Origin: Pusillimonas sp. T7-7
Lineage (GTDB): Bacteria > Pseudomonadota > Gammaproteobacteria > Burkholderiales > Burkholderiaceae_B
Assembly (NCBI RefSeq): GCF_000209655.1
Contig: NC_015458.1
Span: forward strand, 3,162,001-3,226,000
Length of the DNA stretch: 64,000 bases
Direction: 5' to 3'
Every line of letters begins with the position of its first letter. The first letter of the stretch is position 1. The translations under genes were made by a program, and so were the position numbers. Under the pieces are notes generated by a model. That model was not told where the DNA came from. It made no database searches and was given only the letters and a program-made list of their open reading frames with translations. This document shows positions 43,373 through 62,017 of this stretch, piece by piece.

Positions 43373-43424
43373 TACAAAATGGTTGGTGAAATTGTTGACA
43401 ATTTTGTATTGTTCAGTGTATATT
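43373..43424 (+). promoter_or_regulatory. GntR1 promoter with overlapping operators
   Basis: A good -35 TTGACA at 43395-43400 and a -10 TATATT at 43419-43424 are spaced by 18 bases. The dyad AAATTGT-TG-ACAATTT at 43389-43404 covers the -35 box, a form typical of FadR-subfamily GntR operators. A wider inverted pair of TACAAAAT lies at 43373-43380 and 43401-43408. Autoregulation by the GntR encoded next is likely. Confidence 0.7.
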
Positions 43425-43448
43425 TATATCACTCTCAAGGAGAGCAAC

Positions 43449-44150
43449 ATGGTCGAAAACGTTCGAAATCAACCGCGTGGGAACAGCACCAGCAGTGCTG
43501 GCGGCACGGGGCCGAGCATGGAGGAAATCGTTGGAATTCTGCGCACGCGTATTGTGAGTCATGACCTTCCTCCTGGCTCTAAACTGCGCGAAGCGGTATT
43601 GACTGAAGAGTTCAAAGTATCCCGTCCGAGGATACGTGAGGCTTTCGGTGTGTTGGAGGATCGCGGGTTGATTGAGCGAATTCCAAATCGGGGCGCTGTC
43701 GTTACGCGCCTGGAAGCCGATGAGGTGTTTGCCTTGTTTGAGGTCCGCGAAGTGCTTGAAGCGCTAGCCGTACGGTTGGCCACGGAAAAGGCCGATCCTG
43801 GGTCATGGGTTGATCTGGCCGAACGCTTTGGCAAGTCGGCGGAAGACGCTCTGGCACGTGGTGACCTGGATTTCTATGTTGACTGCGTGAGCCTGTTTCG
43901 AGAAAGAGCCATCACGGCCGCTCACAACATCATATTGGCGGAGCAAATGGAAAGCCTGTATGACCGAACGAAAGTATTGATTAGGCGCCTGGTGCTAGTT
44001 CCGGGCCGGGCTGTAGAAGGATTGCGGCAGCATCAAGAGATATTGCAGGCGATGGCCGCCGGCAATGCCGAACTAGCGGAGCGGCTCAAACGGGCCAATA
44101 TCCGTAGCTCACGCGATAGCTTCTCGCACTATCAGAAATATTTGCTGTAA
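43449..44150 (+). CDS. GntR-family (FCD domain) regulator 1
   Basis: A 233-residue regulator with a GntR winged helix (LPPGSKLREAVLTEEFKVSR, then RGLIERIPNRGAVVTRLEAD) and a helical FCD ligand domain. The ATG at 43449 follows aaggaga with good spacing. It is the first gene of operon A, 30 bases before the CoA-transferase. Its sequence is clearly paralogous to the second GntR at 57686 (shared RGLIERIPNRGA, REVLE and end ...KYLL/KYVL). It probably senses the unknown substrate or an acid derived from it. Confidence 0.92.
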   Translation: MVENVRNQPRGNSTSSAGGTGPSMEEIVGILRTRIVSHDLPPGSKLREAVLTEEFKVSRPRIREAFGVLEDRGLIERIPNRGAVVTRLEADEVFALFEVREVLEALAVRLATEKADPGSWVDLAERFGKSAEDALARGDLDFYVDCVSLFRERAITAAHNIILAEQMESLYDRTKVLIRRLVLVPGRAVEGLRQHQEILQAMAAGNAELAERLKRANIRSSRDSFSHYQKYLL

Positions 44151-44180
44151 GCGTATTGCAATGTTTGAAGGAGGTTGAAG

Positions 44181-45449
44181 GTGATCGATCAGGACAATGG
44201 CGCCAATGATAGCGCCGCCGGGCCAGGCCCACTGAGGGGTTGTCGCGTCGTGGAACTTGGATCAACCGTAGCAGGACCGTTCTGCGCCCGGTTGCTTGCC
44301 GATTTTGGTGCGGATGTCATCAAGATCGAGCAAAAGGAGGGGGATGCCGTCCGCTCAATGGGTAAGATCAAGAACGGACGATCGCTTTACGGCGCTTCCA
44401 TTCTGCGCAACAAACGCATAGTCTCTATCGATTTGCGCCTTCCTGAAGGCAGGACTCTTGCCAAGCGTTTGTGCGAGAAGGCCGACATTGTCATCGAGAA
44501 CTTCCGGCCGGGAACGCTGGAGCGTTGGGGTCTGGGTTATGGTGAACTTAGTGCCGTCAATCCGGGTCTGATTATGGTACGTATCAGCGGATACGGACAG
44601 GACGGACCATATAGCCAGCGGCCGGGCTACGGCGTGGTCTGCGAGGCCTTCAGCGGTATACGCGAAGTGACGGGCGACCCGGATCGCCCGCCCGCGCGCG
44701 TGGCGGTGTCGATGACGGATTACATCACGGGGCTTTATGGCGCTTTTGGCGCGACGATGGCCATGTTGGATCGCACCCGTACTGGCCGAGGCCAGGTCAT
44801 TGACGCTGCATTGTACGAAGCCGCCTTTAGCTTCATGGAACCCCATATCCCTGCTTTCCAGCAACTGGGCCACATTGCCAGCCGGGCAGGTTCGCGGCTA
44901 CCCGGCCACACGCCGAACTCGCTCTATACCAGTGCGGAAGGCCGTCATATCCACATTACGGCAGGATCGCAGTCTGTGTTTCAGCGCTTGGTGCAGGCGA
45001 TGGGCAAGCCGGAACTGCTGAAAGATCCGCGCTTCGCAACGCCTGTGGCCCGATCGCAAAATGACGACGAGATCGACGCCTTGGTCGATGAGTGGACACG
45101 CTCGCTGCCCATGACAGAACTGGAACGCGTGCTGGATGAGGCCGGCGTTCCCGCTTCGCGCATCTTCAATCTCGAGGATATCTTCTCGGACCCGCATTAT
45201 CGCGCTCGAAACATGCTGGTCGAGCCGGAAGATCGCGAACTCGGGCCTGTGGCGATGGCTAATGTTGTGCCGCGCATGTCGCGAACACCAGGAGCCGTGC
45301 GCTGGTCCGGCCATGACGTCGGCCAGGATACTGTGCAGATCCTCACCGAGGAGCTGGGCCTGAGTTCAAAGCAAATTGCCGAACTGTCCGAAGCGCAGGT
45401 CATTTATGGTTCCAGCGCATTTTCACCAACCAAAGCGGTAGAGGCCTGA
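44181..45449 (+). CDS. Family III CoA-transferase (CaiB/BaiF)
   Basis: A 422-residue class III CoA-transferase. The N-terminal block CRVVELGSTVAGPFCARLLA, then DFGADVIKIE, is characteristic. ADIVIENFRPGTLERWGLGY and SISGYGQDGPYSQRPGY-type segments follow. The catalytic Asp is expected in VAVSMTDYITGLYGA. A GTG at 44181 sits six bases after aaggagg and is chosen over a TTG six bases earlier. It probably activates a carboxylic acid to its CoA ester for the carboxylase encoded next. Donor and acceptor are unknown. Confidence 0.9.
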   Translation: MIDQDNGANDSAAGPGPLRGCRVVELGSTVAGPFCARLLADFGADVIKIEQKEGDAVRSMGKIKNGRSLYGASILRNKRIVSIDLRLPEGRTLAKRLCEKADIVIENFRPGTLERWGLGYGELSAVNPGLIMVRISGYGQDGPYSQRPGYGVVCEAFSGIREVTGDPDRPPARVAVSMTDYITGLYGAFGATMAMLDRTRTGRGQVIDAALYEAAFSFMEPHIPAFQQLGHIASRAGSRLPGHTPNSLYTSAEGRHIHITAGSQSVFQRLVQAMGKPELLKDPRFATPVARSQNDDEIDALVDEWTRSLPMTELERVLDEAGVPASRIFNLEDIFSDPHYRARNMLVEPEDRELGPVAMANVVPRMSRTPGAVRWSGHDVGQDTVQILTEELGLSSKQIAELSEAQVIYGSSAFSPTKAVEA

Positions 45450-45452
45450 ATC

Positions 45453-47027
45453 ATGGGTGCAAATGACTTGAAAAAAGAAAACGCAGCCGCTGAGCCCAGT
45501 GCGCCCGTCGCAGAACTGCAGCGCAGGAAGGCCCTGGCGATGGCGATGGGCGGGGAGGTAAAACTGGCTCGCCGTAAAGCCGCAGGTCTGCTGAATGCTC
45601 GCGAGCGCATTGACTACTTCGTGGACGCCGGCAGTTATATCGAAACCGGCATGCTGGGAGTGTCATCTGTCGTACCCGAAGATCGGGACACCACCCCAGC
45701 CGACGCCAAGGTAGCGGGCTTTGCTCGTGTGGGCGGCCGGCCGGTGGGGGTGGTGTCCAACGACTTCACGGTCAAGGGGTCATCGAGCAGCCTGACCAAT
45801 ATGAAAAAGATGGGTCACGTGAAGCGGGTAGCTACAGAGCGCGGCTTTCCATTAGTGTTCTTTGGCGAATCCTCGGGCGCACGCATGCCGGACAACATGG
45901 GTTCTCGTGGCATGGGTTCTTTGCTGGGCAATGACCCCCAACAGTATGTGCGCCATCGCGAAAGCCCATGGGCATCCGCCATCCTCGGTCAGTGCTATGG
46001 GTCGTCGGCTTGGTATGCCTGTCTTTCTGATTTCACCGTCATGCGCAAAGGTTCGACGCTGGCTGTCGCCAGCCCGGTGCTGGCGTCGCTCGCCATTGGC
46101 CAAACTGTTGAGCCGGAAGAGCTTGGTGGCTGGAAGCTGCATAGCGAGATCACTGGCCTTGTGGACGCAGTTGTGGAGACCGATGAAGAAGCTATAGATA
46201 TGATCAGGCGCTTCCTGTCGTATCTACCTTCTCATAATCAGGAATCGCCGCCTCGCCTTCCGGTACCGGAAGGCTCGAAGGAAGCGGCGGCGAAGCTGCC
46301 CGAAATCGTACCCGAGAACCGGCGGCGGGTCTATGAGGTGCGCAAGGTCATCAATGCCATTGTCGACAAGGACAGTCTCTTTGAGCTGAAGCCGCGCTTT
46401 GGCAGGACCGCGGTGACCGCCCTGGCTCGGCTGGACGGCCGCACGGTCGGTATCGTTGCCAATAACCCGATGGGCAAGGCTGGCGCCATGGACGTGCCAG
46501 GTTGCGAGAAGATCACCCGTTTTCTGGTCATGTGCGATTCATTCAACATTCCCATCATCATGTTGGTTGACACACCGGGATTCGTTATCGGTGTAGAAGG
46601 TGAGCGTATGAAGGCTCCGGGGAAGATCATGAATTTCATGACGGCGCTGCAGATGTGCAGCGTGCCCAAGCTTTCCGTCATCATGCGCAAGAGTTATGGG
46701 CAAGCCTACCTGAACATGGGCGGCGGTCGTAATTCGGACGATGTCGCGGCTTGGCCGACGGCTGAGGTCAGCTTTATGGATCCGGCCTATTCAGTGCAGG
46801 TCGTTACCTGGGGGCGCGAGGTCGATCAGACCGCGCAAGAGAAGCTGCGCGCCGAGATGGAGCGCGACAGCGACGTATGGAGCATCGCCGAGATGTATGC
46901 CGTACAGGCTGTCATCGAACCGCAGGAAACCCGCGATTACCTGGTGCGCATGTTGGAGGTGCACGAACTACGTCGAACGGGCGGCATAGGCAAACATCAC
47001 ATGGCCGCGTGGCCCACGACTTATTAA
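45453..47027 (+). CDS. Acyl-CoA carboxylase carboxyltransferase subunit (CT1)
   Basis: A 524-residue carboxyltransferase of the PccB/AccD5 type. The N-terminal crotonase-like half carries NARERIDYFVDAGSYIE and LVFFGESSGARMPDN. The C-terminal half carries VGIVANNPMGKAGAMDVPG, IMLVDTPGFVIGVEGE and MRKSYGQAYLNMGGG. In typical CTs the last site reads RKAYGGAY, so the substrate-proximal loops differ. It starts three bases after the CoA-transferase stop. It is one of two different CT subunits in this operon, and the acyl-CoA substrate is unknown. Confidence 0.9.
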   Translation: MGANDLKKENAAAEPSAPVAELQRRKALAMAMGGEVKLARRKAAGLLNARERIDYFVDAGSYIETGMLGVSSVVPEDRDTTPADAKVAGFARVGGRPVGVVSNDFTVKGSSSSLTNMKKMGHVKRVATERGFPLVFFGESSGARMPDNMGSRGMGSLLGNDPQQYVRHRESPWASAILGQCYGSSAWYACLSDFTVMRKGSTLAVASPVLASLAIGQTVEPEELGGWKLHSEITGLVDAVVETDEEAIDMIRRFLSYLPSHNQESPPRLPVPEGSKEAAAKLPEIVPENRRRVYEVRKVINAIVDKDSLFELKPRFGRTAVTALARLDGRTVGIVANNPMGKAGAMDVPGCEKITRFLVMCDSFNIPIIMLVDTPGFVIGVEGERMKAPGKIMNFMTALQMCSVPKLSVIMRKSYGQAYLNMGGGRNSDDVAAWPTAEVSFMDPAYSVQVVTWGREVDQTAQEKLRAEMERDSDVWSIAEMYAVQAVIEPQETRDYLVRMLEVHELRRTGGIGKHHMAAWPTTY

Positions 47028-47059
47028 AGCATTGCACCGTACAGCAAAGGAGAATACAC

Positions 47060-47281
47060 ATGGCAAAAACAGAAATTGGTTCACCGGTGACCGGCACGGT
47101 TTGGAAAGTGGAACGCGCCGTGGGCGACAAGGTGAAAGACGGTGACGTCATCATGATCCTGGAGTCCATGAAGATGGAAATTCCGCTCGAAGCTCCGGGC
47201 GCTGGCGTCATCGCTGAGCTTACCGTCGAGCCGGGAGCTTCCGTAGACGAGGACCAGATACTGTGCGTGATCGAGTTATGA
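47060..47281 (+). CDS. Small biotin carrier protein
   Basis: A 73-residue stand-alone biotinyl domain. The motif ESMKMEIPLEAP places biotin on Lys38. The whole protein is one lipoyl/biotin-fold domain without the Pro/Ala-rich linker of AccB. The start at 47060 follows aaagga. Codons upstream in the same frame overlap CT1 and are not used. It would shuttle carboxybiotin between the biotin carboxylase and the two CT subunits. Its stop overlaps the next start (ATGA). Confidence 0.93.
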   Translation: MAKTEIGSPVTGTVWKVERAVGDKVKDGDVIMILESMKMEIPLEAPGAGVIAELTVEPGASVDEDQILCVIEL

Positions 47282-48879
47282 CGGCGGCAGTCACTTCAAA
47301 CTCACCGGACGAGCAGCCAGACAACGAGCTGATCGCCGAACTACAGTTTCGTCGACAGCAAGGCCAACTGATGGGGGGGCAGGCTGCCATCGAGCGTCAG
47401 CACGCAGCGGGTCGCCTGACGGTGCGCGAACGCATCGCCGCGCTGATCGACGCCGGCAGTTTTCGCGAAGTAGGCAGCTTGGCGGGCACCGGACAGTACG
47501 ATGAAAACAATCGACTGGTGTCCGTGACGCCCGCGCCGTATGTCGGCGGGTTGGCTAAAATAAACGGCCGTCCGGTGGCATTGGGCGGGGAGGACTTTAC
47601 CGTTCGCGGCGGTACGACATTTGGCAGCACGCGCCGCAAAGGCGGACAGGGCGGTTTTGTCGAAGACTTGGCTCATCATTACCGTATTCCCCTGGTTAAT
47701 CTGATTGATGGCGCCGGCGGTAGCGTGACCTCGCTGAAGCGGCGCGGCCACAGCGTCTTTCCCGGCGTTCACGGGTTCGAGCGTTCTGTTGGTCTGCTGG
47801 GTACTGTGCCGGTTGTCTCGGCCGTCCTCGGTACGGCAGCGGGGGGCCCTGCGGGCCGCGCCATACTGTCGCATTTTTCCGTCATGGTACGCGGCACCAG
47901 CCAAGTGTTCGCCGCCGGGCCACCCGTGGTGAAACGCTCGCTGGGCCAGGTAATCGACAAAGACGCCCTGGGTGGACCGAAAGTTGCCGTCGACAAGGCC
48001 GGCACCATACACAATGCCGCTGCAAATGAAGAAGAGGCGTTCGAGCAGATCCGCCGCTTTCTAAGCTTTATGCCATCCAACGCATGGGAACTGCCACCGG
48101 TTGTGCAGAGCGCCGACCCTATAGAGCGCTGCGACGAACGCCTGGCGAGCATCGTGCCGGAAAAGCGCACGCAAGCCTATAACATGCACCGCCTGCTCCG
48201 TATGGTTATCGACCAGGATTCCGATTTCGAAATCCAGCCCACTTACGGCAAATCCGTAGTTACAATGCTGGCGCGCCTGGACGGGCGTCCGGTGGGTATT
48301 ATTGCCAATAATCCCATGGTCTATGGCGGAGCCATGGACGTGCATTCGGCGCGTAAGCAGATCCACTTCATGGAACTGTGCGACACCTTCCATATTCCGT
48401 TGGTGTTTTTTGTGGATGTACCCGGGTTCATGGTTGGTCTGAAAGCCGAAGAGGAAGGCACGCTGCGAGAAGGCATGCGCGCCGTCTATATTGCCGGCAA
48501 TCTACGCGTGCCTACCATTACGTTGGTTATCCGCAAATGTTACGGGATGGCCGGCATGGCCACCTGCAACAAGAACGACGTGGACATGAAACTGGCGTGG
48601 CCTTCGGCGGAATGGGGTTCCCTGCCGGTGGAAGGCGGCGTGGCGGCTGCGTTCCGTCGCGAGATCATGGCTGCGCCTGATCCCGCGGCCAAAGAAAAGG
48701 AGATGGAAGCCGAACTGAAGCCTTACGCCTCTCCCTTCCGCACCGCAGAAGCTTTTGCAGTCGAGGAAATTATCGATCCGCGCGAAACGCGTCCTGTGCT
48801 GTGCGAATGGATCGCGCTGGCCGAAATGCGTCTGCGCGGCGATCTGGGCCCCAAGGCTCGTAGCGGCGTACAGCCCTAG
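47278..48879 (+). CDS. Acyl-CoA carboxylase carboxyltransferase subunit (CT2)
   Basis: A 533-residue second carboxyltransferase, clearly different from CT1. It carries TVRERIAALIDAGSFREVGS, LIDGAGGSVTSLKRRG (where common CTs have a GGARI-type loop), VGIIANNPMVYGGAMDVHSA, FFVDVPGFMVGLKAEEEGT and VIRKCYGMAGMATCN. The ATG at 47278 overlaps the biotin carrier stop by four bases, and a GTG five codons earlier is less likely. Two CTs around one carrier suggest a hetero-oligomeric complex, comparable in idea to mycobacterial AccD4/AccD5, or one CT acting in reverse. Confidence 0.88.
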   Translation: MTAAVTSNSPDEQPDNELIAELQFRRQQGQLMGGQAAIERQHAAGRLTVRERIAALIDAGSFREVGSLAGTGQYDENNRLVSVTPAPYVGGLAKINGRPVALGGEDFTVRGGTTFGSTRRKGGQGGFVEDLAHHYRIPLVNLIDGAGGSVTSLKRRGHSVFPGVHGFERSVGLLGTVPVVSAVLGTAAGGPAGRAILSHFSVMVRGTSQVFAAGPPVVKRSLGQVIDKDALGGPKVAVDKAGTIHNAAANEEEAFEQIRRFLSFMPSNAWELPPVVQSADPIERCDERLASIVPEKRTQAYNMHRLLRMVIDQDSDFEIQPTYGKSVVTMLARLDGRPVGIIANNPMVYGGAMDVHSARKQIHFMELCDTFHIPLVFFVDVPGFMVGLKAEEEGTLREGMRAVYIAGNLRVPTITLVIRKCYGMAGMATCNKNDVDMKLAWPSAEWGSLPVEGGVAAAFRREIMAAPDPAAKEKEMEAELKPYASPFRTAEAFAVEEIIDPRETRPVLCEWIALAEMRLRGDLGPKARSGVQP

Positions 48880-48908
48880 TCAACACATAAACAGGAAATG
48901 CTAAGAAA

Positions 48909-50288
48909 ATGGCTAAGAAACTGCTGATCGCCAATCGCGGCGAGATTGCTTGTCGTATCATTTCCAGCAGCAAGAAGCTGGGGCTGCAAACGGTGGCGGT
49001 CTACTCCGAAGCCGACGCCAATGCCATGCATGTCGAGTTGGCCGATGAGGCTGTACTGGTAGGCGCTGCGCCCGCACGGGAAAGCTATTTGCGGACCGAC
49101 GTGATTCTCGATGCTGCGCGCCACAGTGGTGCCGACCTGATTCATCCGGGTTATGGTTTTCTTTCCGAGAACGCAAATTTCGCGCAGGCCGTCATGGATG
49201 CCGGTTTGGCCTGGGTGGGTCCGGCACCGGCCTCCATCGTTGATATGGGCGACAAGGAACGCGCGCGCGAGATCGCCCGCATCGCCGGCGTACCGATACT
49301 GCCCGGCAGTCGGCGCTTTGCCCTGGGACAGACTGATGACTTGCTGGAGGCTGCTCAGCAGGTCGGTTACCCGCTACTGGTAAAGGCGGCGGCAGGCGGC
49401 GGCGGCATAGGCATGCGTCGTGTCGACGAGGCGGCTCAGTTGCTATCGGTCGTCGAGGCCACACAGTCCATGGCCGGCAAGGCCTTTGGCGATTCCAGTG
49501 TGTACTTGGAGCGCTATGTTGCCGCGGCACGGCACATTGAAGTACAGGTGTTTGGTTTTGGGGATGGCCAAGGCGTGCATCTTTATGATCGCGATTGTTC
49601 CGTACAGCGACGTTTTCAGAAGATTATCGAGGAGGCGCCAGCGCCTGACGTTCCCGATGGTGTGCGGGCCGAACTGTATCGCGCCGCGCTTGCCCTGGTC
49701 GAGCAGCAGCGCTACAGCGGTGCCGGCACGGTCGAGTTCATTTACGACAGCGAGCGCCAGCAAGCCTACTTCCTGGAGATGAACACGCGCATACAAGTCG
49801 AACATCCTACGACCGAAATGGTGACCGGCGTGGACCTTGTGGCATGGCAGATATGCCATGCACTGGGCGAGCTTACCCCGGTACGCCAGGATGCCATCGC
49901 GCTAAGCGGCCACTCCGTCGAGTGCCGCCTTTATGCCGAGCGTCCGGAAAAGAATTTCCTGCCTTCACCAGGGCTGATAGAAACGCTGGACTGGCCCGTG
50001 AAGCAAGAAGGGCTGCGCGTCGATACAGGCGTACGTGCGGGTGATCGTGTTACGCCCTACTACGATCCTATGATCGCAAAGCTGGTCGCGCATGGTGCCG
50101 GCCGCAGCGAAGCAATCGCGCGACTACGGCAGGCGCTGGAAGGATTGACGGTCGCAGGGCTCTCGACCAATGCCGAGTTCCTGCATCAGGTTCTGTCGGA
50201 CGCCGATTTTGCGGCGGGTGGCGTTACGACGGGTTATGTGGGTGATTTTGTTGCGCGGCGGAACGGGGCATTGAGGAAGGCGAGTTAA
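48909..50288 (+). CDS. Stand-alone biotin carboxylase
   Basis: A 459-residue AccC-like ATP-grasp enzyme that carboxylates biotin with ATP and bicarbonate. It shows LIANRGEIACRIISS, HPGYGFLSENANFA, the glycine-rich loop AAAGGGGIGMRRV, RDCSVQRRFQKIIEEAPAP and the catalytic FLEMNTRIQVEHPTTEMVTG. The length matches a lone BC without biotinyl domain, so the small carrier at 47060 must be its partner. It is the last gene of operon A, and its stop overlaps the end of the convergent dehydrogenase gene by four bases. Confidence 0.93.
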   Translation: MAKKLLIANRGEIACRIISSSKKLGLQTVAVYSEADANAMHVELADEAVLVGAAPARESYLRTDVILDAARHSGADLIHPGYGFLSENANFAQAVMDAGLAWVGPAPASIVDMGDKERAREIARIAGVPILPGSRRFALGQTDDLLEAAQQVGYPLLVKAAAGGGGIGMRRVDEAAQLLSVVEATQSMAGKAFGDSSVYLERYVAAARHIEVQVFGFGDGQGVHLYDRDCSVQRRFQKIIEEAPAPDVPDGVRAELYRAALALVEQQRYSGAGTVEFIYDSERQQAYFLEMNTRIQVEHPTTEMVTGVDLVAWQICHALGELTPVRQDAIALSGHSVECRLYAERPEKNFLPSPGLIETLDWPVKQEGLRVDTGVRAGDRVTPYYDPMIAKLVAHGAGRSEAIARLRQALEGLTVAGLSTNAEFLHQVLSDADFAAGGVTTGYVGDFVARRNGALRKAS

Positions 50289-51172
50289 AGCGACCAGAAC
50301 TCGGCGAGATTGGAGATATCTTTCTTCGAAAGACCCAGCACCTGAGCAAGCTGGAGAGTCTGGTGTGCGGCGGCAGAAACCAGAAAGGGCTTGCCGGTTT
50401 TTGCAGCCAGTTCTTGTGACAGGAAAAGATCTTTTGCTGCCAGCTCGATACGAAAATTCACTTTACTGTGATCGCGAGAAATAAAGCGTTTACCGAAGGC
50501 TTCGATCGTACCGCTCTTGCCGTTTCCTGCCATGACCGCGTCGTAGAACGCCTGTATGTCCAATCCGGAGTCTCTGGCCAGCTCGGTGGCCTCCGCCACA
50601 ATAGCCACCGTACTCAGGCTGATCATATTGTTCAGTATTTTGGCTGTATGTCCTGTGCCTGCGGGTCCGAAGCGGAAATAATCAGTGCCCATCACGCGCA
50701 GATATGGCATGACGTGTTCTACGTCCTTGTCTTCACCACCGATAAAAAAGGCCAGTGTCCCGTCACGGGCGCCTTGAACGCCGCGTGATACGGGTGCATC
50801 GACCAGGCCGATGTCCCGGTCTTTCAAGACTTCAGCTAAGCGGCGTGTGCTTGTCGGGTCGCTGGTCGAGCAATCGATCAGTATGGAGCCGGGCGTGAGG
50901 GCGCCGATGATGCCGTCTTTTCCCAGGACCACATTTTCTACTTCCGTAGATGAGGGCAGCATCAACAGGGTGACACCGGCTTGGGTCGCCGCCTCGTAGG
51001 AGGATGTGGCCACGACCGCGCCGAGCTGACCAAGCCGGTGTATTGGATCCCGATTGTGATGACCAGCGACGATGACCGAGAAGCCGTGTTTCAGTAAGTT
51101 GGCGGCCATGGGTTCCCCCATGGATCCCGCACCGATTAGCGCGAGGCTGGGTTGAGAGGAGACGGTACCCAT
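50285..51172 (-). CDS. Beta-hydroxyacid dehydrogenase (3-hydroxyisobutyrate dehydrogenase family)
   Basis: A 295-residue NAD(P)-dependent oxidoreductase. The Rossmann start LALIGAGSMGEPMAANLLKH, the substrate motif DAPVSRGVQGARDGTL and catalytic Lys178 in AGTGHTAKILNNMI are present. In most relatives the substrate motif reads DAPVSGG; Arg130 here is unusual and may alter substrate choice. The family includes 3-hydroxyisobutyrate, tartronate-semialdehyde and L-threonate dehydrogenases. It is the last gene of operon B, 26 bases after the TAXI receptor, with AAGGGG before its ATG. Confidence 0.87.
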   Translation of the reverse strand: MGTVSSQPSLALIGAGSMGEPMAANLLKHGFSVIVAGHHNRDPIHRLGQLGAVVATSSYEAATQAGVTLLMLPSSTEVENVVLGKDGIIGALTPGSILIDCSTSDPTSTRRLAEVLKDRDIGLVDAPVSRGVQGARDGTLAFFIGGEDKDVEHVMPYLRVMGTDYFRFGPAGTGHTAKILNNMISLSTVAIVAEATELARDSGLDIQAFYDAVMAGNGKSGTIEAFGKRFISRDHSKVNFRIELAAKDLFLSQELAAKTGKPFLVSAAAHQTLQLAQVLGLSKKDISNLAEFWSL

Positions 51173-54163: not shown

Positions 54164-55873
54164 CTAGCGCTCAAATTGGAATGGCCGTCCGGCCAATTGG
54201 CGGATACGGACATCCAGAACTGCCGGACCGGTACAAGCAATGAAGTCGTCTATGACCTCATCCAGCTTATCGGGATCGCTGACATGAAAGCCTCGTGCGC
54301 CAACCATCTCTGCGAACGCGTCGTAACGGATATCGGGCAGCTCGCATCCGACGGCCTTGCCGTAATCTCGCAACTGCAGTCGCTTTTCAATGCCCCAGGC
54401 AGCATCATTGCCAACGATGACTTTGATGGGTAAGCCCATTTGGACAGCCGTCACGAGTTCCCAACTATAGAAGCTGAAGCCGCCGTCACCCAGAAATATC
54501 CAGACCGGGTCCTCTGGTGCTGCCAGTTGAGCCCCCATACCGAGAGGTAGCCCTGCACCCAGTGCACCAAAGGTGCCGCCGTCCATCCATCGTCCTCGAC
54601 CTCGAGCGGGGAAGAAAGATCGTGCCCAATGAATGAAGTCTCCGGCATCGACGGTGATGGTGGTGCGGTCAGTAAGGTGGCGCTCCAGGCTGATACAGAC
54701 TTTGAGCGGATGCATGGCGGCTTGCGGTTCTGATTGCTCGGCCACGGAAAGCACTGTCTGCCACGAGTTGCGCTCTTGCTGATAGGCATCGCGGAACCGC
54801 GCCATCCAGTCTGCTTTGCGGACGGATGCCCCATTGTCTGACGATTCGGCAAGGTAGTTCAGAAAGGGCTTTACCGGTCCGCAGAACGAAGCGGCGTTGC
54901 TGCGATTCATGCCGATTTTGTGCGCGTCCCTATGGGCTTGGATAAAGCGGGTGTTTTCAGCAAAAAAATGCAGTCGTCCCATGACTTGATGGCAATCGAC
55001 CTGCGCTCCAATTAAGATGACGAGGTCTGCACCGCGTGCTTCTCGGAAGCTTGTACTGAAAAAGGGATCTCCATAGCCGAAGCAAAGCTGCCCATCGTCC
55101 GGCAGTAGACCACGGGCTAATTCAACAGTGAAGACCGGTATGTTCAGCAAGGACGTTACGCGAGCGATTTCGTCTTCCGAATATTCAAAGAATGCGCCGC
55201 TGCCCAGAATCAAGATGGGTCGTTGGGCCTGCGCAAGCAGAGCCACGGCGTCATCCATCTGTTTGCCGCCGCCCTTGTAGTCGGGCCGGCACGCTAGTTC
55301 CGATCGATAGCTTGGTGTTCGACCATCGACCCCGGCTTGGCGCATACCCAGCAAGGTATCCAGCGGGGCATTCAGGTTCACCGGCCCTGGCGTGCCGTCT
55401 TGCGCGATTTGCAAGCTGCGGATGCAAAATTCGCCATAGTGGTCGGACGCCGCAATTTCATGAGAGAACTTGGTGATCGGCCGTGTCAGGTCGCTTTGCG
55501 GAAGAACCTGCATCCCGCCGCGTTCGCGCTGTTCCAGCGGGGTTGCCCCGGAGATCAACAACACTGGCGAACCGGCATGCTGCGCGCAAGCCAGGCCGGT
55601 TATCGTGTTGGTATGGCCGGGGGCTCCGGTGACCACTGCTACGCCTGGCTGCCCTGTTGCGCGAGCCCAGCCATCTGCCATATGCACCGCAGCCGACTCT
55701 TGATGCACGCTGACAATCTCTACGCCGTTTAAGTCCAGGGCGCGGTAGAGATGATTGATATGGTCTCCGCATAGGGCAAAGACGCGATCAATACCGGACG
55801 ATTTCAGCGTCTGTGCCAACAGCTCTGCGCCAGAACCTTCGATTCGCTGTTGTCCCTCACTTACTTCTGGCAT
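54164..55873 (-). CDS. Thiamine-diphosphate-dependent enzyme (ALS/2-hydroxyacyl-CoA lyase-like), substrate unknown
   Basis: A 569-residue ThDP enzyme. The activating Glu59 (VHQESAAVHMADGWARATG) is kept, so it is not a glyoxylate carboligase, which has Val there. TGAPGHTNTITGLACAQHAG, and the cofactor motif from GDGG at 462 to Asn489, complete the fold. Resemblance is spread over acetolactate synthase, oxalyl-CoA decarboxylase and 2-hydroxyacyl-CoA lyase; I cannot choose. It lies between aldehyde dehydrogenase and TRAP genes, so production of an aldehyde is plausible. The start at 55873 has AGGAAG. A 132-codon upstream extension overlaps the dehydrogenase and is rejected. Confidence 0.82.
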   Translation of the reverse strand: MPEVSEGQQRIEGSGAELLAQTLKSSGIDRVFALCGDHINHLYRALDLNGVEIVSVHQESAAVHMADGWARATGQPGVAVVTGAPGHTNTITGLACAQHAGSPVLLISGATPLEQRERGGMQVLPQSDLTRPITKFSHEIAASDHYGEFCIRSLQIAQDGTPGPVNLNAPLDTLLGMRQAGVDGRTPSYRSELACRPDYKGGGKQMDDAVALLAQAQRPILILGSGAFFEYSEDEIARVTSLLNIPVFTVELARGLLPDDGQLCFGYGDPFFSTSFREARGADLVILIGAQVDCHQVMGRLHFFAENTRFIQAHRDAHKIGMNRSNAASFCGPVKPFLNYLAESSDNGASVRKADWMARFRDAYQQERNSWQTVLSVAEQSEPQAAMHPLKVCISLERHLTDRTTITVDAGDFIHWARSFFPARGRGRWMDGGTFGALGAGLPLGMGAQLAAPEDPVWIFLGDGGFSFYSWELVTAVQMGLPIKVIVGNDAAWGIEKRLQLRDYGKAVGCELPDIRYDAFAEMVGARGFHVSDPDKLDEVIDDFIACTGPAVLDVRIRQLAGRPFQFER

Positions 55874-55916: not shown

Positions 55917-57410
55917 TCAGTGGGAAGGATTGCCTTCGCCTTGATATACGATGACAGTCTTGAGCTGGGTGTAGTCATGGATTGCCGCAAGGCCTTTTTC
56001 ACGACCGAAGCCGCTATTCTTGTACCCACCGAAGGGCGCTTCGACGCCCACTGGCTGGTAGTCGTTGACATAGACTTGGCCGGCCTCCAATAGCCCTGCC
56101 ACCCGATGGGCGCGACCGACATCTGACGTCCATACGGCTGCTGCCAGGCCAAAGTCGTTGTCGTTGGCCATAGCAACGGCTTGCTCTTCATCATCAAAAG
56201 GGATGAGGACACCCACGGGGCCGAATATTTCTTCGCGGGCAATTCGCATTTGATTGGTGACATCGACAAAAAGTGCCGGCTCGATGAAGTGGCCGCCTGT
56301 GCCTAGTAGTGCGGAGGGCTTATTGCCGCCATAAATCAGGCGGGCGCCTTCCTGGCGACCGATGTCGAGATAGCCACATACACGTTCTAGTTGCCGTGCC
56401 GAAACGACCGGTCCAATGGCAGAGTTATCCGTGCCGGCGCCGATAGTTACCTGCTTGAGTTCGTCGATAAGCAGTGCTGCAAATTTTTCTTGTACGCTAC
56501 GATGAACCAGTAGGCGTGTTCCGGCTGAACAGATTTGCCCGGTATTGAAGACGAAGGCTTTGCGTGCCAGTGTGGCTGCGCGTTCCAGGTCGGCATCTGG
56601 AAAAATAATAAACGGTGATTTCCCGCCTAGCTCGACGGTCACGGGAATGATTCGCTCGGCGACGCCATGCAAAACTTCTCGGCCCGTTTCGACGGACCCG
56701 GTAAAGCTGATGCGGCGCACGCCCATGTTATCGACGAGAGCCTTGCCCGCTTCCGCGCCATAACCGGTAACGACGTTGACGACGCCGGCTGGCATTCCCG
56801 CTTCGATACACAGCCTGGCAAGTTCCAGAGTCGTGATGGACGTTTCCTCGGCAGGCTTCAAGACGACGGAGTTTCCGGCGCACAACGCAGGTGCGGCTCC
56901 GCGTCCGGCTTGTGTGATCGGCCCGTTCCACGGGATGATATGGCCGGTCACGCCGTACGGTTCGCGTATTGAGTAGGTGATGTGCGTATCGGTCGTTGGT
57001 ACGACTTCGCCCAGGATTTTGTCTGCGGCGCCACCGAAATATTCGAAGTATCTGGCACAAGTTTCTACGTCAGCCCTCGCAACCCATAAAGGCTTACCCG
57101 TATCAAGACTTTCCAGGTAAGCGAGCGAATCCAGATTATCTAAAAGCAAGTGACTGATGCGCAGCATGATGCGACCGCGCTGCAGAGGTTTTAGTGCGCG
57201 CCAAGCCCGATAGCCTTGTTGGGCGCTGGCGACGGCCTTGGAGATATCCGAGGCGTTGCCCCGGGCGCACTCTGTCAGTCGGCCACCGGTGGACGGGTTC
57301 TCGACCTCGATATATTGCCCTCCGGAGGGCGCTTGATGTTGCCCGCCAATAAAGTGCTCATAGCGGGTGCGTACGGGGATATCACCCACTAAAGTCGCTG
57401 ATGCATCCAT
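55917..57410 (-). CDS. NAD(P)-dependent aldehyde dehydrogenase
   Basis: A 497-residue ALDH with Asn162 (PWNGP), Glu260 (VELGGKSP) and catalytic Cys294 (FNTGQICSAGTRL), plus EEIFGPVGVLIPF and PFGGYKNSGFGREKG. All catalytic residues are intact. It is the first gene of operon B, 43 bases before the ThDP enzyme, and probably oxidises an aldehyde from that enzyme or from the dehydrogenase. General sequence character is betaine/4-aminobutyraldehyde-dehydrogenase-like, so the substrate is open. The start has AAGGAACG immediately before ATG. Confidence 0.9.
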   Translation of the reverse strand: MDASATLVGDIPVRTRYEHFIGGQHQAPSGGQYIEVENPSTGGRLTECARGNASDISKAVASAQQGYRAWRALKPLQRGRIMLRISHLLLDNLDSLAYLESLDTGKPLWVARADVETCARYFEYFGGAADKILGEVVPTTDTHITYSIREPYGVTGHIIPWNGPITQAGRGAAPALCAGNSVVLKPAEETSITTLELARLCIEAGMPAGVVNVVTGYGAEAGKALVDNMGVRRISFTGSVETGREVLHGVAERIIPVTVELGGKSPFIIFPDADLERAATLARKAFVFNTGQICSAGTRLLVHRSVQEKFAALLIDELKQVTIGAGTDNSAIGPVVSARQLERVCGYLDIGRQEGARLIYGGNKPSALLGTGGHFIEPALFVDVTNQMRIAREEIFGPVGVLIPFDDEEQAVAMANDNDFGLAAAVWTSDVGRAHRVAGLLEAGQVYVNDYQPVGVEAPFGGYKNSGFGREKGLAAIHDYTQLKTVIVYQGEGNPSH

Positions 57411-57466: not shown

Positions 57467-57492
57467 AACAATAAATTGTTAATTATTTTGTA
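57467..57492. promoter_or_regulatory. Operator-like dyad upstream of aldehyde dehydrogenase operon
   Basis: The dyad AACAAT-AA-ATTGTT lies at 57467-57480. The octamer TACAAAAT (minus strand) lies at 57485-57492, 75 bases before the dehydrogenase start. The octamer also occurs at both GntR promoters, so a GntR protein may bind here. Confidence 0.5.
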
Positions 57493-57541: not shown

Positions 57542-57645
57542 TACTCTTATCACGATGCTGTTGAAGAGTAAGGACTACCGTTTTATAAGTTTACAGGTCG
57601 ATTGACGGTATCAATACAAAATAGTTGACAAAATGGACGTCAACT
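57542..57645. promoter_or_regulatory. Inverted repeats and TACAAAAT element upstream of GntR2
   Basis: Three elements are visible. TACTCTT at 57542-57548 has its complement at 57564-57570. TACAAAAT lies at 57615-57622. AGTTGAC at 57623-57629 has its exact complement GTCAACT at 57639-57645. The last dyad covers a TTGACA (57625-57630) that could be a -35 box. This suits autoregulation of GntR2 and control of the divergent operon B. Confidence 0.55.
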
Positions 57646-57685
57646 TATATCGTTCGTTCAAGCGTCCACTAGAGTGGAGTCACGT

Positions 57686-58396
57686 ATGGCGTCCAGCACC
57701 AAAATTAAAGAGGCAACATCGGCCCTGCCTACGTTGCGCAAGATGGCTGCAAAGTCCACTGGTCGGCCCGACGTGCTCGCCACTTTGCGAGAACGCATTG
57801 CGCGTTACGAATTGCCGCCCGGTTCGAAGCTGAACGAGTACGAGTTGGCTAGCGAATTTGATGTACCCCGCACACGCATACGCGATGTCTTCACGGCGCT
57901 GGAGCAACGTGGCCTTATCGAACGTATACCCAACCGCGGTGCGATGGTCGCTCGGCTTGAGCCACAGCAAGTTTTCCATATTTACGATATGCGGGAAGTG
58001 CTGGAAGGCCTGTGCGCACGATTGGCCTGCCAAAACGCAGATCCTGCCTCGTGGCAGGATCTGCTGGATCAGTTCTCGGGACCCGTGGAAGTTGCGGTGA
58101 AGAATGGCGATTTTGAGGCTTATACCGAGATCTATGACAGCTTCCGGCGCCGCTGTATCGAGGCCGCCGCCAACCCCGTCCTGGCGCAAGCGCTGGACAA
58201 CATCTACGAAAAAACGCAAGTTCTTATCCGCCGCATCATCATCTTGCCGGGTCGCGGTGAAATCGGCGTGCGGGAGCATCGGGCAGTTCTGGAAGCCATG
58301 CGCCGCGGCGATTGCGATGCGGCTGAACAACTGCGCCGAGCCAACATACGCAACGCCAAGGCTTTTTTGGCGCGCTACATCAAATACGTCCTTTAA
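57686..58396 (+). CDS. GntR-family (FCD domain) regulator 2
   Basis: A 236-residue paralogue of the regulator at 43449. It has a winged helix with LPPGSKLNEYELASEFDVPR, then RGLIERIPNRGAMVARLEPQ, and the same helical FCD domain ending ARYIKYVL. The ATG at 57686 has ggag six to nine bases upstream; a GTG four codons earlier is less likely. It is divergent from operon B and heads the ABC transporter operon, so it is placed to govern both. Confidence 0.92.
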   Translation: MASSTKIKEATSALPTLRKMAAKSTGRPDVLATLRERIARYELPPGSKLNEYELASEFDVPRTRIRDVFTALEQRGLIERIPNRGAMVARLEPQQVFHIYDMREVLEGLCARLACQNADPASWQDLLDQFSGPVEVAVKNGDFEAYTEIYDSFRRRCIEAAANPVLAQALDNIYEKTQVLIRRIIILPGRGEIGVREHRAVLEAMRRGDCDAAEQLRRANIRNAKAFLARYIKYVL

Positions 58397-58485
58397 CGAT
58401 AAAGCGCTACACAGACGAGCGCAATAAAGCAGTGCACACCGAGCCGCCCTGCAAATAGCGGTTTATCTATCCAAAGGAGAACGCA

Positions 58486-59496
58486 ATGAAGACGAAAAAA
58501 TTCATGCACTACGCCGCAGGCGCTCTATGCGCAATCATGATGGCCGGTGCAGCGCACGCTGAAACCGACGAAGTCACACTGGCGCGCCAGTTCGGGATCG
58601 GATATTTGCCCTTAACAGTAATGAATATCAATGGGCTGGTACAGAAGCAACTTAAAGAAGCGGGTCTGACAGACACTAAGGTGACTTGGTCACGGTTCGG
58701 ATCTGGTTCAGCCGCCAACGATGCACTGCTTTCCGGTCAGCTTAACTTCGCTGCTGGCGGCACCGGTCCGGCGATCATCCTCTGGGACAAGACCCGCACT
58801 AATGTGAAGGTACACGGGGTTGCCGCGCTGAGCTCGATGCCCAACATGCTGGTCAGTATCGCGCCCGAAATTAAATCCATTGAAGACTTCACCGATAAAG
58901 ACAAGATCGCAATGGCGGGCGCGGGCTCGTCGGTCCAGACCGTGTATTTGCAGATGGCGGCAGCCAAGAAGTGGGGCTTGGACAACTACAAGAAGCTCAA
59001 TCCATTAATGGTCAATTTGCCGCACCCGGAAGGACTTAACGCTGTGTTGTCGGGCTCGGCCGGAATACGGTCCACTTTTACAAGCCCGCCCTTTCAGTAC
59101 ATGGCGCTGGAGAATGAGGGCGTACACGTCGTACTGAACTCGTATGACATCATGGGTGGTCCCACTACCTTCCTGATGGTTTGGGGTACCGACAAGTTCC
59201 GCACTGAAAATCCGAAGACCTACAAGGCCGTTCTGGCTGCGTTGAACGAAGCAACAGACTGGATCAACGCCAACCCGCGTGAGGCTGCGGAACTCTATGT
59301 GAAGGATACCGGCGGTAAAGACAGGGTTGAGTTCATCGAGAAAATGGTCCGCGATCCACAAATCAGATACAAGCTCGCGCCTGACCGTATTCTGCCGTTC
59401 GCGCAGTTCATGAACGACGTGGGTACGATCAAGAATCGTCCAGAAGCCTGGAGCGATCTGTTCTTTCCCGAAATACACGATCTAAAGGGAAGCTAA
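58486..59496 (+). CDS. ABC transporter substrate-binding protein (SsuA/TauA/NMT1-like)
   Basis: A 336-residue periplasmic binding protein with signal peptide MKTKKFMHYAAGALCAIMMA ending at AHA-ETDE. The pattern FGIGYLPLTVMNINGLVQKQ, FGSGSAANDALLSGQLNFAA and AGAGSSVQTVYLQMAAAKKW is that of receptors for sulfonates, nitrate or aromatic acids. It follows the GntR2 gene by 89 bases and precedes the ATPase and permease genes. An aaaggag lies before its ATG. The ligand is unknown. Confidence 0.9.
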   Translation: MKTKKFMHYAAGALCAIMMAGAAHAETDEVTLARQFGIGYLPLTVMNINGLVQKQLKEAGLTDTKVTWSRFGSGSAANDALLSGQLNFAAGGTGPAIILWDKTRTNVKVHGVAALSSMPNMLVSIAPEIKSIEDFTDKDKIAMAGAGSSVQTVYLQMAAAKKWGLDNYKKLNPLMVNLPHPEGLNAVLSGSAGIRSTFTSPPFQYMALENEGVHVVLNSYDIMGGPTTFLMVWGTDKFRTENPKTYKAVLAALNEATDWINANPREAAELYVKDTGGKDRVEFIEKMVRDPQIRYKLAPDRILPFAQFMNDVGTIKNRPEAWSDLFFPEIHDLKGS

Positions 59497-59552
59497 GGTT
59501 GCTTCGGCGCGCCAGTACCTTTACTGGCGCGCCAATCGGATAGAGGTTGCAA

Positions 59553-60353
59553 ATGAATCAGCATGATACGCAGTCGCCGCTGCTGGATGTTCAGGGCGTG
59601 ACGCTGCAATATAAGACCGTAGAGCATCTGATTACGGCAACGTACAAGGTCAGCTTCAGTGTGGAGTCCGGTGATCGCTTCGTGCTGCTGGGTCCCTCGG
59701 GCTGCGGCAAGTCTTCATTATTGAAGGCGGTCGGCGGTTACCTTACGCCTATTGAGGGAAGCATCCGGCTGCAAGGCCGCGAAGTGCAGCGGCCCGGCCC
59801 CGACCGCATGATGGTCTTCCAGGAGTTCGACCAGTTGTTGCCCTGGAAAACCATCTGTGAGAACGTCGCTTTTCCCTTACACGCCAGCGGAAAAATGGGT
59901 AAACGCGAAGCGCGCGAGAAGGCGATGGAGTATATCGCCAAGGTGAATCTCACCAAGTTTGCCGACAGTCATCCTCATATGCTGTCTGGTGGAATGAAGC
60001 AACGCGTGGCGATCGCACGTGGCATGGCCATGGAACCAGCCATCTTGTTGATGGATGAGCCTTTTGCAGCATTGGACGCCCTGACCCGCCGCAAGATGCA
60101 GGACGAATTGCTGCAATTGTGGGACGACACTAAATTCACCGTCCTGTTTGTAACGCATTCCATTCCCGAGGCCATACGGATAGGTAGTCGCATACTGTTG
60201 CTGACACCCCATCCGGGCCAGGTAAAGGCTGAACTCAACAGCCTGTCGCGAGGCGAATTGGACCCGGCTCTGCATCAGGTATTGGAAGACAAGATTAACA
60301 ATATGCTCTTCGCAGAAAAAGTGGAAGACGAACGGGAGACACACCATGCCTGA
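59553..60353 (+). CDS. ABC transporter ATP-binding protein (SsuB/TauB-like)
   Basis: A 266-residue ATPase with Walker A GPSGCGKSS, Q-loop VFQEFDQLLPWKT, signature LSGGMKQRVAIARGMA, Walker B ILLMDEPFAALD and the switch His in FVTHSIPEA. These features fit the nitrate/sulfonate/taurine uptake class. The ATG at 59553 follows agagg; a TTG two codons earlier is less likely. The gene overlaps the permease start by eight bases. Confidence 0.94.
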   Translation: MNQHDTQSPLLDVQGVTLQYKTVEHLITATYKVSFSVESGDRFVLLGPSGCGKSSLLKAVGGYLTPIEGSIRLQGREVQRPGPDRMMVFQEFDQLLPWKTICENVAFPLHASGKMGKREAREKAMEYIAKVNLTKFADSHPHMLSGGMKQRVAIARGMAMEPAILLMDEPFAALDALTRRKMQDELLQLWDDTKFTVLFVTHSIPEAIRIGSRILLLTPHPGQVKAELNSLSRGELDPALHQVLEDKINNMLFAEKVEDERETHHA

Positions 60354-61224
60354 CTCTATGGAAATGAGGCGGCCACGTCCCGAAGTCCACTACGAGCCGA
60401 TCGCCTCGGAGTCTTTCGGGATAGTCGAAAAACCGTTGTCCGGGTGGGAGCGCGTGACCAACATCGGCGGCGTTCGCAAGCTTTTCCTTCTGCTTGTGCT
60501 GGCGCTGATTTGGCAAATCTATGCCACCAATTTGAACAATCCCCTAATATTTCCCACCTTTATTGAAACCGTCAAGGCGCTGTTCGAAGGTATTGCTTCG
60601 GGCGGACTGTTGCTTAAGGCCTGGACGTCCATACGCGTATTGCTGGTGGGTTACGCGGCAGGCATCGGCCTGGCTGCCGTGCTGACCGTGTTGGCTATTA
60701 CCACCCGTATCGGCACGGACATCCTTGAAACACTGACGGCCATGTTCAATCCGCTACCCGCTATTGCCTTGCTGCCGCTGGCCCTGATCTGGTTTGGCCT
60801 GGGCGAAGGCAGCCTGGTATTTGTGTTGGTGCACTCCGTGCTGTGGGCCGTTGCATTGAACACCCATTCGGGCTTCTTGTCGGTGTCGCCCACGTTGCGG
60901 ATGGTGGGACGCAACTACGGCCTGACCGGATTCTCGTATGTTCGGCAGATACTTATTCCGGCGGCCTTTGCCAGCATACTGTCCGGTTTGAAGATAGGCT
61001 GGGCATTTGCCTGGCGAACCTTGATTGCCGCTGAGCTGGTCTTTGGAGTAAGTTCGGGCTCCGGCGGTTTGGGCTGGTTCATTTACGAGAATAAAAACAT
61101 GCTTGAAATACCCAGCGTCTTCGCTGGTCTATTCATGGTGATTTTGATCGGTTTGTTTGTAGAAAACGTGATATTCAATTCCTTGGAGAAATGCACGATT
61201 CGTCGCTGGGGCATGCAAAGCTAA
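60346..61224 (+). CDS. ABC transporter permease (SsuC/TauC-like)
   Basis: A 292-residue inner-membrane permease with about six helices. It carries the BPD_transp_1 region, with the EAA-like loop near VGRNYGLTGFSYVRQILIPA and AGLKIGWAFAWRTLIAAEL-type sequence next to it. An unusually long hydrophilic N-terminus of about 45 residues precedes the first helix. It overlaps the ATPase gene by eight bases and is followed after ten bases by the TauE/SafE gene, so all four genes form one operon. Confidence 0.92.
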   Translation: MPDSMEMRRPRPEVHYEPIASESFGIVEKPLSGWERVTNIGGVRKLFLLLVLALIWQIYATNLNNPLIFPTFIETVKALFEGIASGGLLLKAWTSIRVLLVGYAAGIGLAAVLTVLAITTRIGTDILETLTAMFNPLPAIALLPLALIWFGLGEGSLVFVLVHSVLWAVALNTHSGFLSVSPTLRMVGRNYGLTGFSYVRQILIPAAFASILSGLKIGWAFAWRTLIAAELVFGVSSGSGGLGWFIYENKNMLEIPSVFAGLFMVILIGLFVENVIFNSLEKCTIRRWGMQS

Positions 61225-61234
61225 GTAGAACTAC

Positions 61235-61999
61235 ATGATCCCCGACTGGGTACTCCAGCAACTGCCATCGCTGCCGATATTCGCCGTACTGGCAGGCGCT
61301 ACCTTTGTCGGTAGCGTCATGCGCGGATTCTCCGGGTTTGGCGCGGGGCTGTTGATGGCTCCGGTGTTCAGCCTACTGATGTCGCCTACCGATGTCGTGG
61401 TGCTGGTGCTGGGAATCAACCTATTGACCACTTTCCAGATGTTGCCCGACGCTTTGCGCAACGTGAATTGGCGGCTTGTTCTGCGGTTGTTCATTCCATC
61501 ATTGATCGGTTTACCCATCGGTCTTGCCATGCTGCATATGGTCGACGCGGCCATCATGCGCAAGACGGTAGCCTTTATCGTGATACTGGTCGCCTTGCTT
61601 ATGTTGGCGGGATGGCATTACCGGGGCCGGCGCGGTCCGGCTCAAGACTCGATGGCCGGAACATTAAGCGGTTTCATGACAGCCATCGCGGGCATAGGCG
61701 GACCGCCGGTCATCCTGTACATGCTGTCGGATCGTGCTTTGCCGCTTGCAGTCATGCGGGCAGTCAGTCTGGTGTATTTCAGTATGGCGCAGGTCGCAAC
61801 GCTGGCACCGCTGGCGTTGAGCGGATCTCTCACAGCGCAGCAGGGCATCTATACGTTGCTCTTGCTACCGGTGGCTATTCTCGCCAGCCTGTTGGGCGCC
61901 CAGTTACACCGGTGGTCGATGGGCCAGCACCAGGAACGAGTCAGAAGGATCTCATTGTTCATGCTGCTGGCCATCGGCATTACGGCTTTGGTGATGTAG
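61235..61999 (+). CDS. TauE/SafE family permease
   Basis: A 254-residue membrane protein with about eight helices, containing GSVMRGFSGFGAGLLMAPVF and the second-half counterpart GTLSGFMTAIAGIGGPPVIL, which are the repeated halves of the TauE/SafE (DUF81) fold. Members move sulfite, sulfoacetate or other small anions, usually outward. Placed directly after an SsuABC-like importer, it may export an anion released during catabolism of the substrate. It ends in a hairpin that includes its stop codon. Confidence 0.9.
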   Translation: MIPDWVLQQLPSLPIFAVLAGATFVGSVMRGFSGFGAGLLMAPVFSLLMSPTDVVVLVLGINLLTTFQMLPDALRNVNWRLVLRLFIPSLIGLPIGLAMLHMVDAAIMRKTVAFIVILVALLMLAGWHYRGRRGPAQDSMAGTLSGFMTAIAGIGGPPVILYMLSDRALPLAVMRAVSLVYFSMAQVATLAPLALSGSLTAQQGIYTLLLLPVAILASLLGAQLHRWSMGQHQERVRRISLFMLLAIGITALVM

Positions 62000-62017
62000 T
62001 CCGATGTGAATCGGACT
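61998..62017. terminator. Hairpin at the end of the TauE/SafE gene
   Basis: AGTCCGAT at 61998-62005 pairs perfectly with ATCGGACT at 62010-62017 across a GTGA tetraloop, a stable GNRA-type loop. It overlaps the plus-strand stop codon and adjoins the stop of the decayed minus-strand gene. T-runs on either side are weak, so termination is probable but not certain. Confidence 0.55.

Follow-up and report, generated by a model that had tools for sequence, protein, structure and literature searches.

Pusillimonas sp. T7-7 carries, at about 43.3–62 kb of a 64,000-nucleotide (nt) stretch of its genome (hereafter, the window), an island of three operons. Operon A (plus strand) encodes, in this order, a GntR-family regulator (GntR1), a family III CoA-transferase (CoAT), a carboxyltransferase subunit (CT1), a biotin carboxyl carrier protein (BCCP), a second carboxyltransferase subunit (CT2) and a biotin carboxylase (BC). 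Operon B (minus strand) encodes an aldehyde dehydrogenase (ALDH), a thiamine diphosphate (ThDP) enzyme, a fused tripartite ATP-independent periplasmic (TRAP) permease, a TAXI solute-binding protein and a beta-hydroxyacid dehydrogenase (HADH), and operon C (plus strand) a second regulator (GntR2), a substrate-binding protein (SBP), the ATPase and permease of an ATP-binding cassette (ABC) importer and a TauE/SafE-family permease (TauE). On balance, we favour a reading in which A and C constitute one catabolic cassette and B was acquired separately, probably feeds A and is probably under the same pair of GntR regulators. Pfam and NCBIfam profile models, by which all families were assigned, agree with those listed in an initial annotation of this DNA (GntR, CoA-transferase, four-part biotin carboxylase, aldehyde dehydrogenase, ThDP enzyme, TAXI-TRAP, dehydrogenase, ABC importer and TauE), which had joined the three operons into a single island and pathway.

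Operons A and C in relatives and the position of operon B

Gene order in relatives indicates that operons A and C are one conserved system, into which B, 7.4 kb long, was inserted between BC and GntR2. In locus L038 (genome G005), the genes run GntR1-CoAT-CT1-BCCP-CT2-BC-GntR2-SBP-ABC-permease-TauE, and B is missing. The window segments 41645–50242 and 57615–61999 align to this locus at about 80%, and the gap between the two aligned blocks measures about 110 bp in L038 versus 7.4 kb in the window, with the break near the end of BC. An identical junction lacking B occurs in Alcaligenaceae bacterium CGII-47 (L058; 75–77% DNA identity), a locus in which GntR1 was not seen, and in L039 (G040) a single run holds A and C genes in interleaved order.

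Among 150 relatives, the own genome being counted in every gene tally, CT1 was found in 20 (E-value of 1e-110 or better) and CT2 in 18 (1e-150). SBP was found in 38 (1e-60), but with at least 70% identity in only four, the next best match being at 48%; all four, the own genome included, have both CT1 and CT2. Compared with the 20 genomes for CT1, the ThDP gene occurs in two of the 150 (1e-110), as does the window's TAXI protein (1e-60). Outside the own genome, no ThDP gene of this kind was detected in overlapping samples of 399 (order), 398 (phylum) and 369 (class) genomes, with at most three candidates scored per genome. At the locus level, we took the best 80 of 165 named CT1 loci, many of which stop at contig ends, making the counts lower bounds; 59 of the 80 qualified as cassette loci, with matches to CT1 (at least 50%), CT2 (at least 55%) and CoAT (at least 45%). 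Twelve of these 59 have a C-type SBP (at least 50%), which in 11 of them directly follows CT2 among the mapped genes. No ThDP enzyme like that of the window (at least 40%) and no HADH like that of B (at least 30%) was found in any of them; one has an ALDH of at least 30% (L072, cut by the contig end) and three have another type of ThDP enzyme (ThDP2). The single island of the initial annotation, for which it had proposed a check of co-occurrence and synteny, therefore holds for A and C, which are kept together in relatives, and fails for the co-inheritance of B, which G005 lacks despite having the other two operons.

The cassette occurs in records titled Beta-, Alpha- and Gammaproteobacteria. 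A TAXI protein is found in 18 of the 59 cassette loci and a tripartite tricarboxylate SBP in 14; the cassette appears to combine its constant CoA-transferase and biotin carboxylase with any of three kinds of importer (ABC, TAXI-TRAP and tripartite tricarboxylate). The island is accessory, since among the congeners CT1 has no match in G001 and G002 and a single one, at 44% only, in G003. GC content is 0.59–0.60 over most of A and about 0.55–0.56 over both B and C, so that B is not set apart from C by composition. B may be of foreign origin and have been recruited to a regulon that was already in place.

A and B converge end to end, as already noted in the initial annotation, their stop codons overlapping by 4 bp, and B and C diverge, with 263 bp between B and the annotated GntR2 start. 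On the minus strand, B comprises HADH (50285–51172; Pfam NAD_binding_2 and NAD_binding_11, NCBIfam models below cut-off), the TAXI protein (51199–52176; above the TIGR02122 cut-off), the fused TRAP permease (52211–54100; above the TIGR02123 cut-off), the ThDP enzyme (54164–55873) and ALDH (55917–57410; Pfam Aldedh, with 519 bits to the betaine-aldehyde dehydrogenase model, below its cut-off of 668.6). On the plus strand, C continues after GntR2 with an SsuA/NMT1-type SBP (58486–59496; 93 bits to SsuA_fam, below its cut-off of 163.5), the importer ATPase (59547–60353) and permease (60346–61224), both recognised by family profile matches, and TauE (61235–61999; Pfam TauE, 101.7 bits). By eye, the likely true starts are 43449 for GntR1, 57686 for GntR2, 55873 for the ThDP enzyme, 47060 for BCCP and 47278 for CT2. 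Close upstream of the island, at 38296–40176, lies AceK (isocitrate dehydrogenase kinase/phosphatase).

Operator-like sites in the island and in related loci

GntR1 (43449–44150, plus strand; Pfam GntR and FCD; open reading frame (ORF) listed from 43383) and the likewise FCD-type GntR2 (57686–58396, plus strand; ORF listed from 57674) share 47.7% identity over 218 amino acids (aa), which bears out the paralogy from which a joint pathway had initially been proposed. Passages of PMC4494728 describe the operators of FadR-subfamily GntR regulators as A/T-rich palindromes with TKGT and ACMA boxes 2–3 nt apart. A 20-bp palindromic matrix (consensus CAATATTGTTAACAATATTG), derived from the regions upstream of 50 GntR genes in relatives, has the TKGT-N2-ACMA form given there. 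Its training left out the window, L038, L056, L057 and L058; the final matrix uses the 35 best of the 50 sites, and one training pair of the 50 is a single record fetched twice (L041, L115). We adopted this relatives-only matrix because two 15-mer patterns, TACAAAATDRTTRRY and TACAAAATNRTYRAC, proved circular: their only matches in the own genome are at A, B and C, the sites from which they were derived.

The three best of the 63,981 window positions are the predicted operator of A (43387–43406, 24.4 bits), that of C (57617–57636, 22.5 bits, kept in L038 and L058) and a weak operator-like site before B (57471–57490, 15.15 bits). Site A (TTGT-TG-ACAA) has both boxes intact and is the only one of the FadR-subfamily form in full; site C (TAGT-TG-ACAA) has one box off. 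Dinucleotide shuffles of the respective promoter reached the observed score in 0 (A), 1 (C) and 10 (B) of 5000 cases. Of 2000 permuted matrices, 21 equalled B by absolute score and none equalled A, B and C jointly, by rank or by score. Pairwise comparison of the promoters adds modest support (matched by shuffles in 1/300 for A-B, 3/300 for A-C and 2/300 for B-C). Co-regulation of the three operons is supported by these predicted GntR-family sites, which lie before A and C and, in weaker form, before B. The fourth best window match (24141–24160, 14.2 bits) lies away from the island.

We also scanned 117 fetched loci (2.03 Mb, training loci included), which yielded 113 site clusters of at least 14 bits; 80 of these lie a short distance upstream of a GntR, CoAT, CT, BC or BCCP gene, and 18 listed sites are intragenic or have no recognised target. 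At least one site is present in 48 of the 59 cassette loci. Sites also precede importers (e.g., in L041, L042, L051, L058, L060, L062, L063 and L164) and ThDP operons, twice in L042 (15.5 and 14.6 bits) and once each in L062 (18.3) and L063 (25.7), three loci that contributed no sequence to matrix training; in all, five of the six counted ThDP genes have a site. Behind a 15.6-bit site in L169 comes a GntR-CoAT-CT2 run headed by an ALDH gene, and L164 has a 26.5-bit site flanked by an aconitase (AcnA) and by a PrpB-family lyase, from which the genes continue into CoAT-BCCP-CT2-BC. The operator-like site is a direct handle on the system and suggests that aconitase, PrpB-family lyase, ThDP enzyme and ALDH belong to the pathway. 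In L042 (G087), one operon groups orthologues of ALDH (63%) and the ThDP enzyme (50%) with an aldo-keto-reductase-like gene and a tripartite tricarboxylate SBP; a second operon, ThDP-GMC, adjoins, and both promoters have the operator-like site.

An aconitase is part of the CT1 run in L107 (same contig as L044), L090, L119 and L122, accompanied in the runs of L119 and L090 by a PrpB-family lyase, which in L164 lies beside the cassette. L090 and L164 are the aconitase loci with a site. AcnA of L119 and L107 passes the NCBIfam AcnA cut-offs, the L119 lyase falls below the prpB cut-off, and in L066 and L068 a two-subunit AcnX follows BC. The cassette-side aconitase is probably not the only copy: we rejected it as the sole housekeeping enzyme on finding 3 (L119), 6 (L107), 4 (L090), 5 (L122) and 5 (G026) matches per genome, some of them partial.

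Carboxylase, CoA-transferase and proposed pathway

BC (48909–50288; Pfam Biotin_carb_N/C and CPSase_L_D2), the carrier BCCP (47060–47281; Pfam Biotin_lipoyl, 73 aa with the biotinyl-Lys motif ESMKM), CT1 (45453–47027; Pfam Carboxyl_trans) and CT2 (47278–48879; 35.0% identity to CT1), all on the plus strand, together encode a predicted biotin-dependent acyl-CoA carboxylase, the four-part enzyme initially described. Nine of the 18 genomes having CT2 also have CT1. The stretches L163–L165, L167–L171, L176 and L177 pair CoAT with CT2 and lack CT1, and CT1 occurs without CT2, adjoining a CoA-ligase-like gene, in L051–L053, L055 and L140; CT1 and CT2 look like two exchangeable subunits serving one BC/BCCP. 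Their best-scoring solved structures are beta chains of propionyl-CoA carboxylase (PCC; 311 bits for CT2, 278 for CT1). At the PCC-specificity column, which we take to be position 422 of Streptomyces coelicolor PccB and to hold Asp in PCC, CT1 has Leu420 and CT2 Met427. No Asp was found there in 105 CT1 rows (L 63, I 22, V 18, S 2) and 85 CT2 rows (M 71, G 14), counts that include one record fetched twice.

CoAT (44175–45449, plus strand) is assigned to family III by a CoA_transf_3 domain spanning residues 20–386 of 424. Its best NCBIfam models are succinate-glutarate and mesaconate CoA-transferases, both below cut-off, and Asp182 within TDYITGLYG, spotted by eye, may be the counterpart of the catalytic Asp169 of Frc.

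Related arrangements were observed elsewhere. A second CoAT-CT-BCCP-BC operon (L048; G000:C1:3395000-3414900; CoAT 54%, CT 46% to CT2) is present in the own genome, together with a GntR gene and a tripartite tricarboxylate SBP; its CoAT is preceded by an operator-like site of 15.2 bits. On a plasmid of Cupriavidus sp. P-10 (L177), CoAT-BCCP-CT2-BC adjoins bioA, bioF, bioD and bioB. Metagenome-assembled genomes of Burkholderiales (L118, L130, L135 and L045-L046) combine CT1/CT2/BC with SorA/SoxC-like sulfite dehydrogenases, electron-transfer flavoprotein subunits and a CoA-ligase-like protein, with a fluoroacetyl-CoA-thioesterase-like protein in L046/L118 and L135. A conserved protein of ~460 aa in the cassettes L059–L062, L074, L076, L077, L079 and L084 has no Pfam domain (one tested) and is probably a permease. 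The c18 protein of marine cassettes, considered as an enzyme, was set aside for want of a Pfam match; by eye it looks like a membrane protein, likely a permease.

The scheme that follows is inferred in its reactions, substrate and direction of flow and in the regulation of B. The SsuA-type ABC importer would take up a small organic acid, onto which the CoA-transferase would move CoA, the donor probably being the carboxylated product or succinyl-CoA. The biotin carboxylase, with its two alternative CT subunits, would carboxylate the CoA ester, and the product would enter central metabolism directly or via aconitase/lyase steps (hydration, cleavage or entry into the tricarboxylic acid (TCA) cycle). 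In B, probably governed by the same GntR pair, TAXI-TRAP would import a hydroxy or oxo acid, which the dehydrogenase and the ThDP enzyme would convert to an aldehyde; ALDH would oxidise the latter to an acid that probably feeds A. This placement of B upstream of the activation and carboxylation by A seems more plausible than the order initially proposed (carboxylation, then ThDP cleavage), for which we found no direct support, because ALDH heads the CoAT-CT2 run of L169.

Candidate substrates are unsaturated C5 dicarboxylates, suggested by the best CoAT models (below cut-off) and by the aconitase and lyase of some relatives, and sulfonate-linked acids, suggested by TauE, sulfite dehydrogenases and a gene cluster of genome G073. 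In one specific and very improbable version, itaconate or mesaconate would be imported and turned by the CoA-transferase into its CoA ester, and carboxylation of the methyl/methylene carbon would then give aconityl-CoA; CoA would pass to the following substrate molecule, and the freed aconitate would enter the TCA or glyoxylate route. B would provide the acid by oxidatively decarboxylating a 2-oxo acid. Such a route would explain the aconitase and the isocitrate-lyase-family enzyme in or beside some relatives' cassettes (behind the operator in L090 and L164).

Alternative readings and known systems

Several observations weigh against B as a functional part of the system and, more generally, against our reading. 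A, B and C together were found in no genome other than that of the window. The ACMA box of site B is broken (TTGT-TA-ATTA), the matrix overlaps the -35 box, and B's site is insecure taken alone, because whole-window shuffles reach 15.15 bits somewhere in 5 of 30 cases and the rank of the B promoter is equalled by 47 of 300 permuted matrices (A: 15, C: 8). The ThDP and ALDH test promoters outside the window were picked after scanning all loci, and sites are missing from the ThDP operon of L117, from a weak ThDP-like ORF in L054 (left out of the ThDP count) and from the ALDH genes of L054 and L072. No site of at least 14 bits was found in the close relative L039, nor in L119, L107 and L122 with their aconitases in the cassette run. 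In the matches listed, all enzymes stay below the NCBIfam equivalog cut-offs, so the models assign no substrate. B could be an unrelated passenger, inserted by chance beside GntR2 with a mere AT-rich promoter for a site, A/C and B serving different substrates. Its absence from L038 and L058, that of comparable ThDP and HADH genes from the 59 cassette loci and its insecure site speak for this, as does the orthologue of its TRAP system in G073 (70% and 78%), which lies in a different cluster without an operator-like site (best 9.3 bits). Nevertheless, the B promoter holds the third best operator match in 64 kb, and the ThDP/ALDH operons of L042, L062, L063 and L169 also carry the site, which makes the passenger hypothesis appear doubtful to us. 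In this G073 cluster (L166), the closest relative seen of B's TRAP transporter has as neighbours TauE, a galactarate/altronate-type dehydratase and an Ldh_2 dehydrogenase similar to sulfolactate dehydrogenase.

Two other explanations concern the substrate of A/C. One is an organosulfonate-linked acid, with TauE exporting sulfite and with the sulfite dehydrogenases, ComA-like and Xsc-like ThDP proteins of relatives as parts of the route. TauE in operon C, SorA/SoxC-like genes in 7 of the 80 CT1 loci, a ComA-like gene in L068 (below cut-off), the ThDP2 of L062 (best with Xsc models, below cut-off) and the sulfolactate-dehydrogenase-like gene (303 of 500 bits) beside TauE and the TRAP orthologue in G073 are consistent with it. 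However, the window operons have no desulfonating enzyme above cut-off, only four of the 59 cassette loci have TauE, each of these families has non-sulfonate members and no clear chemistry joins carboxylation with sulfonates, so that we regard this substrate as unlikely. An ordinary propionate or acetate route, in which CoAT would form propionyl- or acetyl-CoA and the carboxylase methylmalonyl- or malonyl-CoA, is suggested by the PCC beta chains at the top of the structure matches, but seems more unlikely still: Asp, whose specificity role we assume, is lacking from both CT families, there is no mutase, epimerase or prpC among the A, B and C genes, and a dedicated importer with two CTs exceeds the needs of propionate.

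Like propionyl-/acetyl-CoA carboxylase, the window has BC, BCCP and CT beta functions, but it differs in the separate 73-aa BCCP, two CTs without the specificity Asp and the tie to a CoA-transferase and an importer. Two different CT subunits with one BC are known from the mycobacterial long-chain acyl-CoA carboxylase (AccD4 + AccD5), to which, judging by chain name, the structure chains 9t97_D4a and D5a presumably correspond; the window differs in its separate BCCP, in its catabolic operon context and in that no epsilon subunit was seen. The methylcitrate/dimethylmalate lyase route shares the aconitase and PrpB-family lyase of the L119 and L090 runs and of the L164 surroundings, although no prpC was seen there, CoAT and carboxylase are present, and the window operons have neither aconitase nor lyase. 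For the ThDP enzyme, the nearest solved structures are 2-hydroxyacyl-CoA lyase and benzaldehyde lyase, with the Glu and GDG motif aligned by eye, but it stays below the NCBIfam cut-offs in the best 25 of 51 matches. A sulfolactate/sulfoacetate system is not indicated (ThDP enzyme at 215 bits against the Xsc cut-off of 676; no UxaA-type gene in A, B and C), nor is Frc-Oxc oxalate degradation (ThDP enzyme at 201 of 739 bits for TIGR03254, CoAT at 198 of 504 bits for TIGR03253).

A possible parallel is the itaconate degradation cluster, in which, from passages of PMC12290011, a CoA-transferase acts first on a small dicarboxylate; compared with these, A, B and C have a carboxylase instead of a hydratase and citramalyl-CoA lyase, and no MaoC or CitE-type match was found among the genes scanned at 43.3–62 kb. 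According to PMC9804861, isoprene induces a Variovorax cluster that contains carboxylase subunits and biotin genes. Among the papers listed by a literature search that did not extend to most subscription papers or to RegPrecise, none showed, by title or opening of the abstract, a pathway with these parts or their combination with a dedicated operator. If found, the substrate would define a CO2-adding catabolic route. The kinds of enzymes are already known; what may be new is their combination with a dedicated operator-like site.

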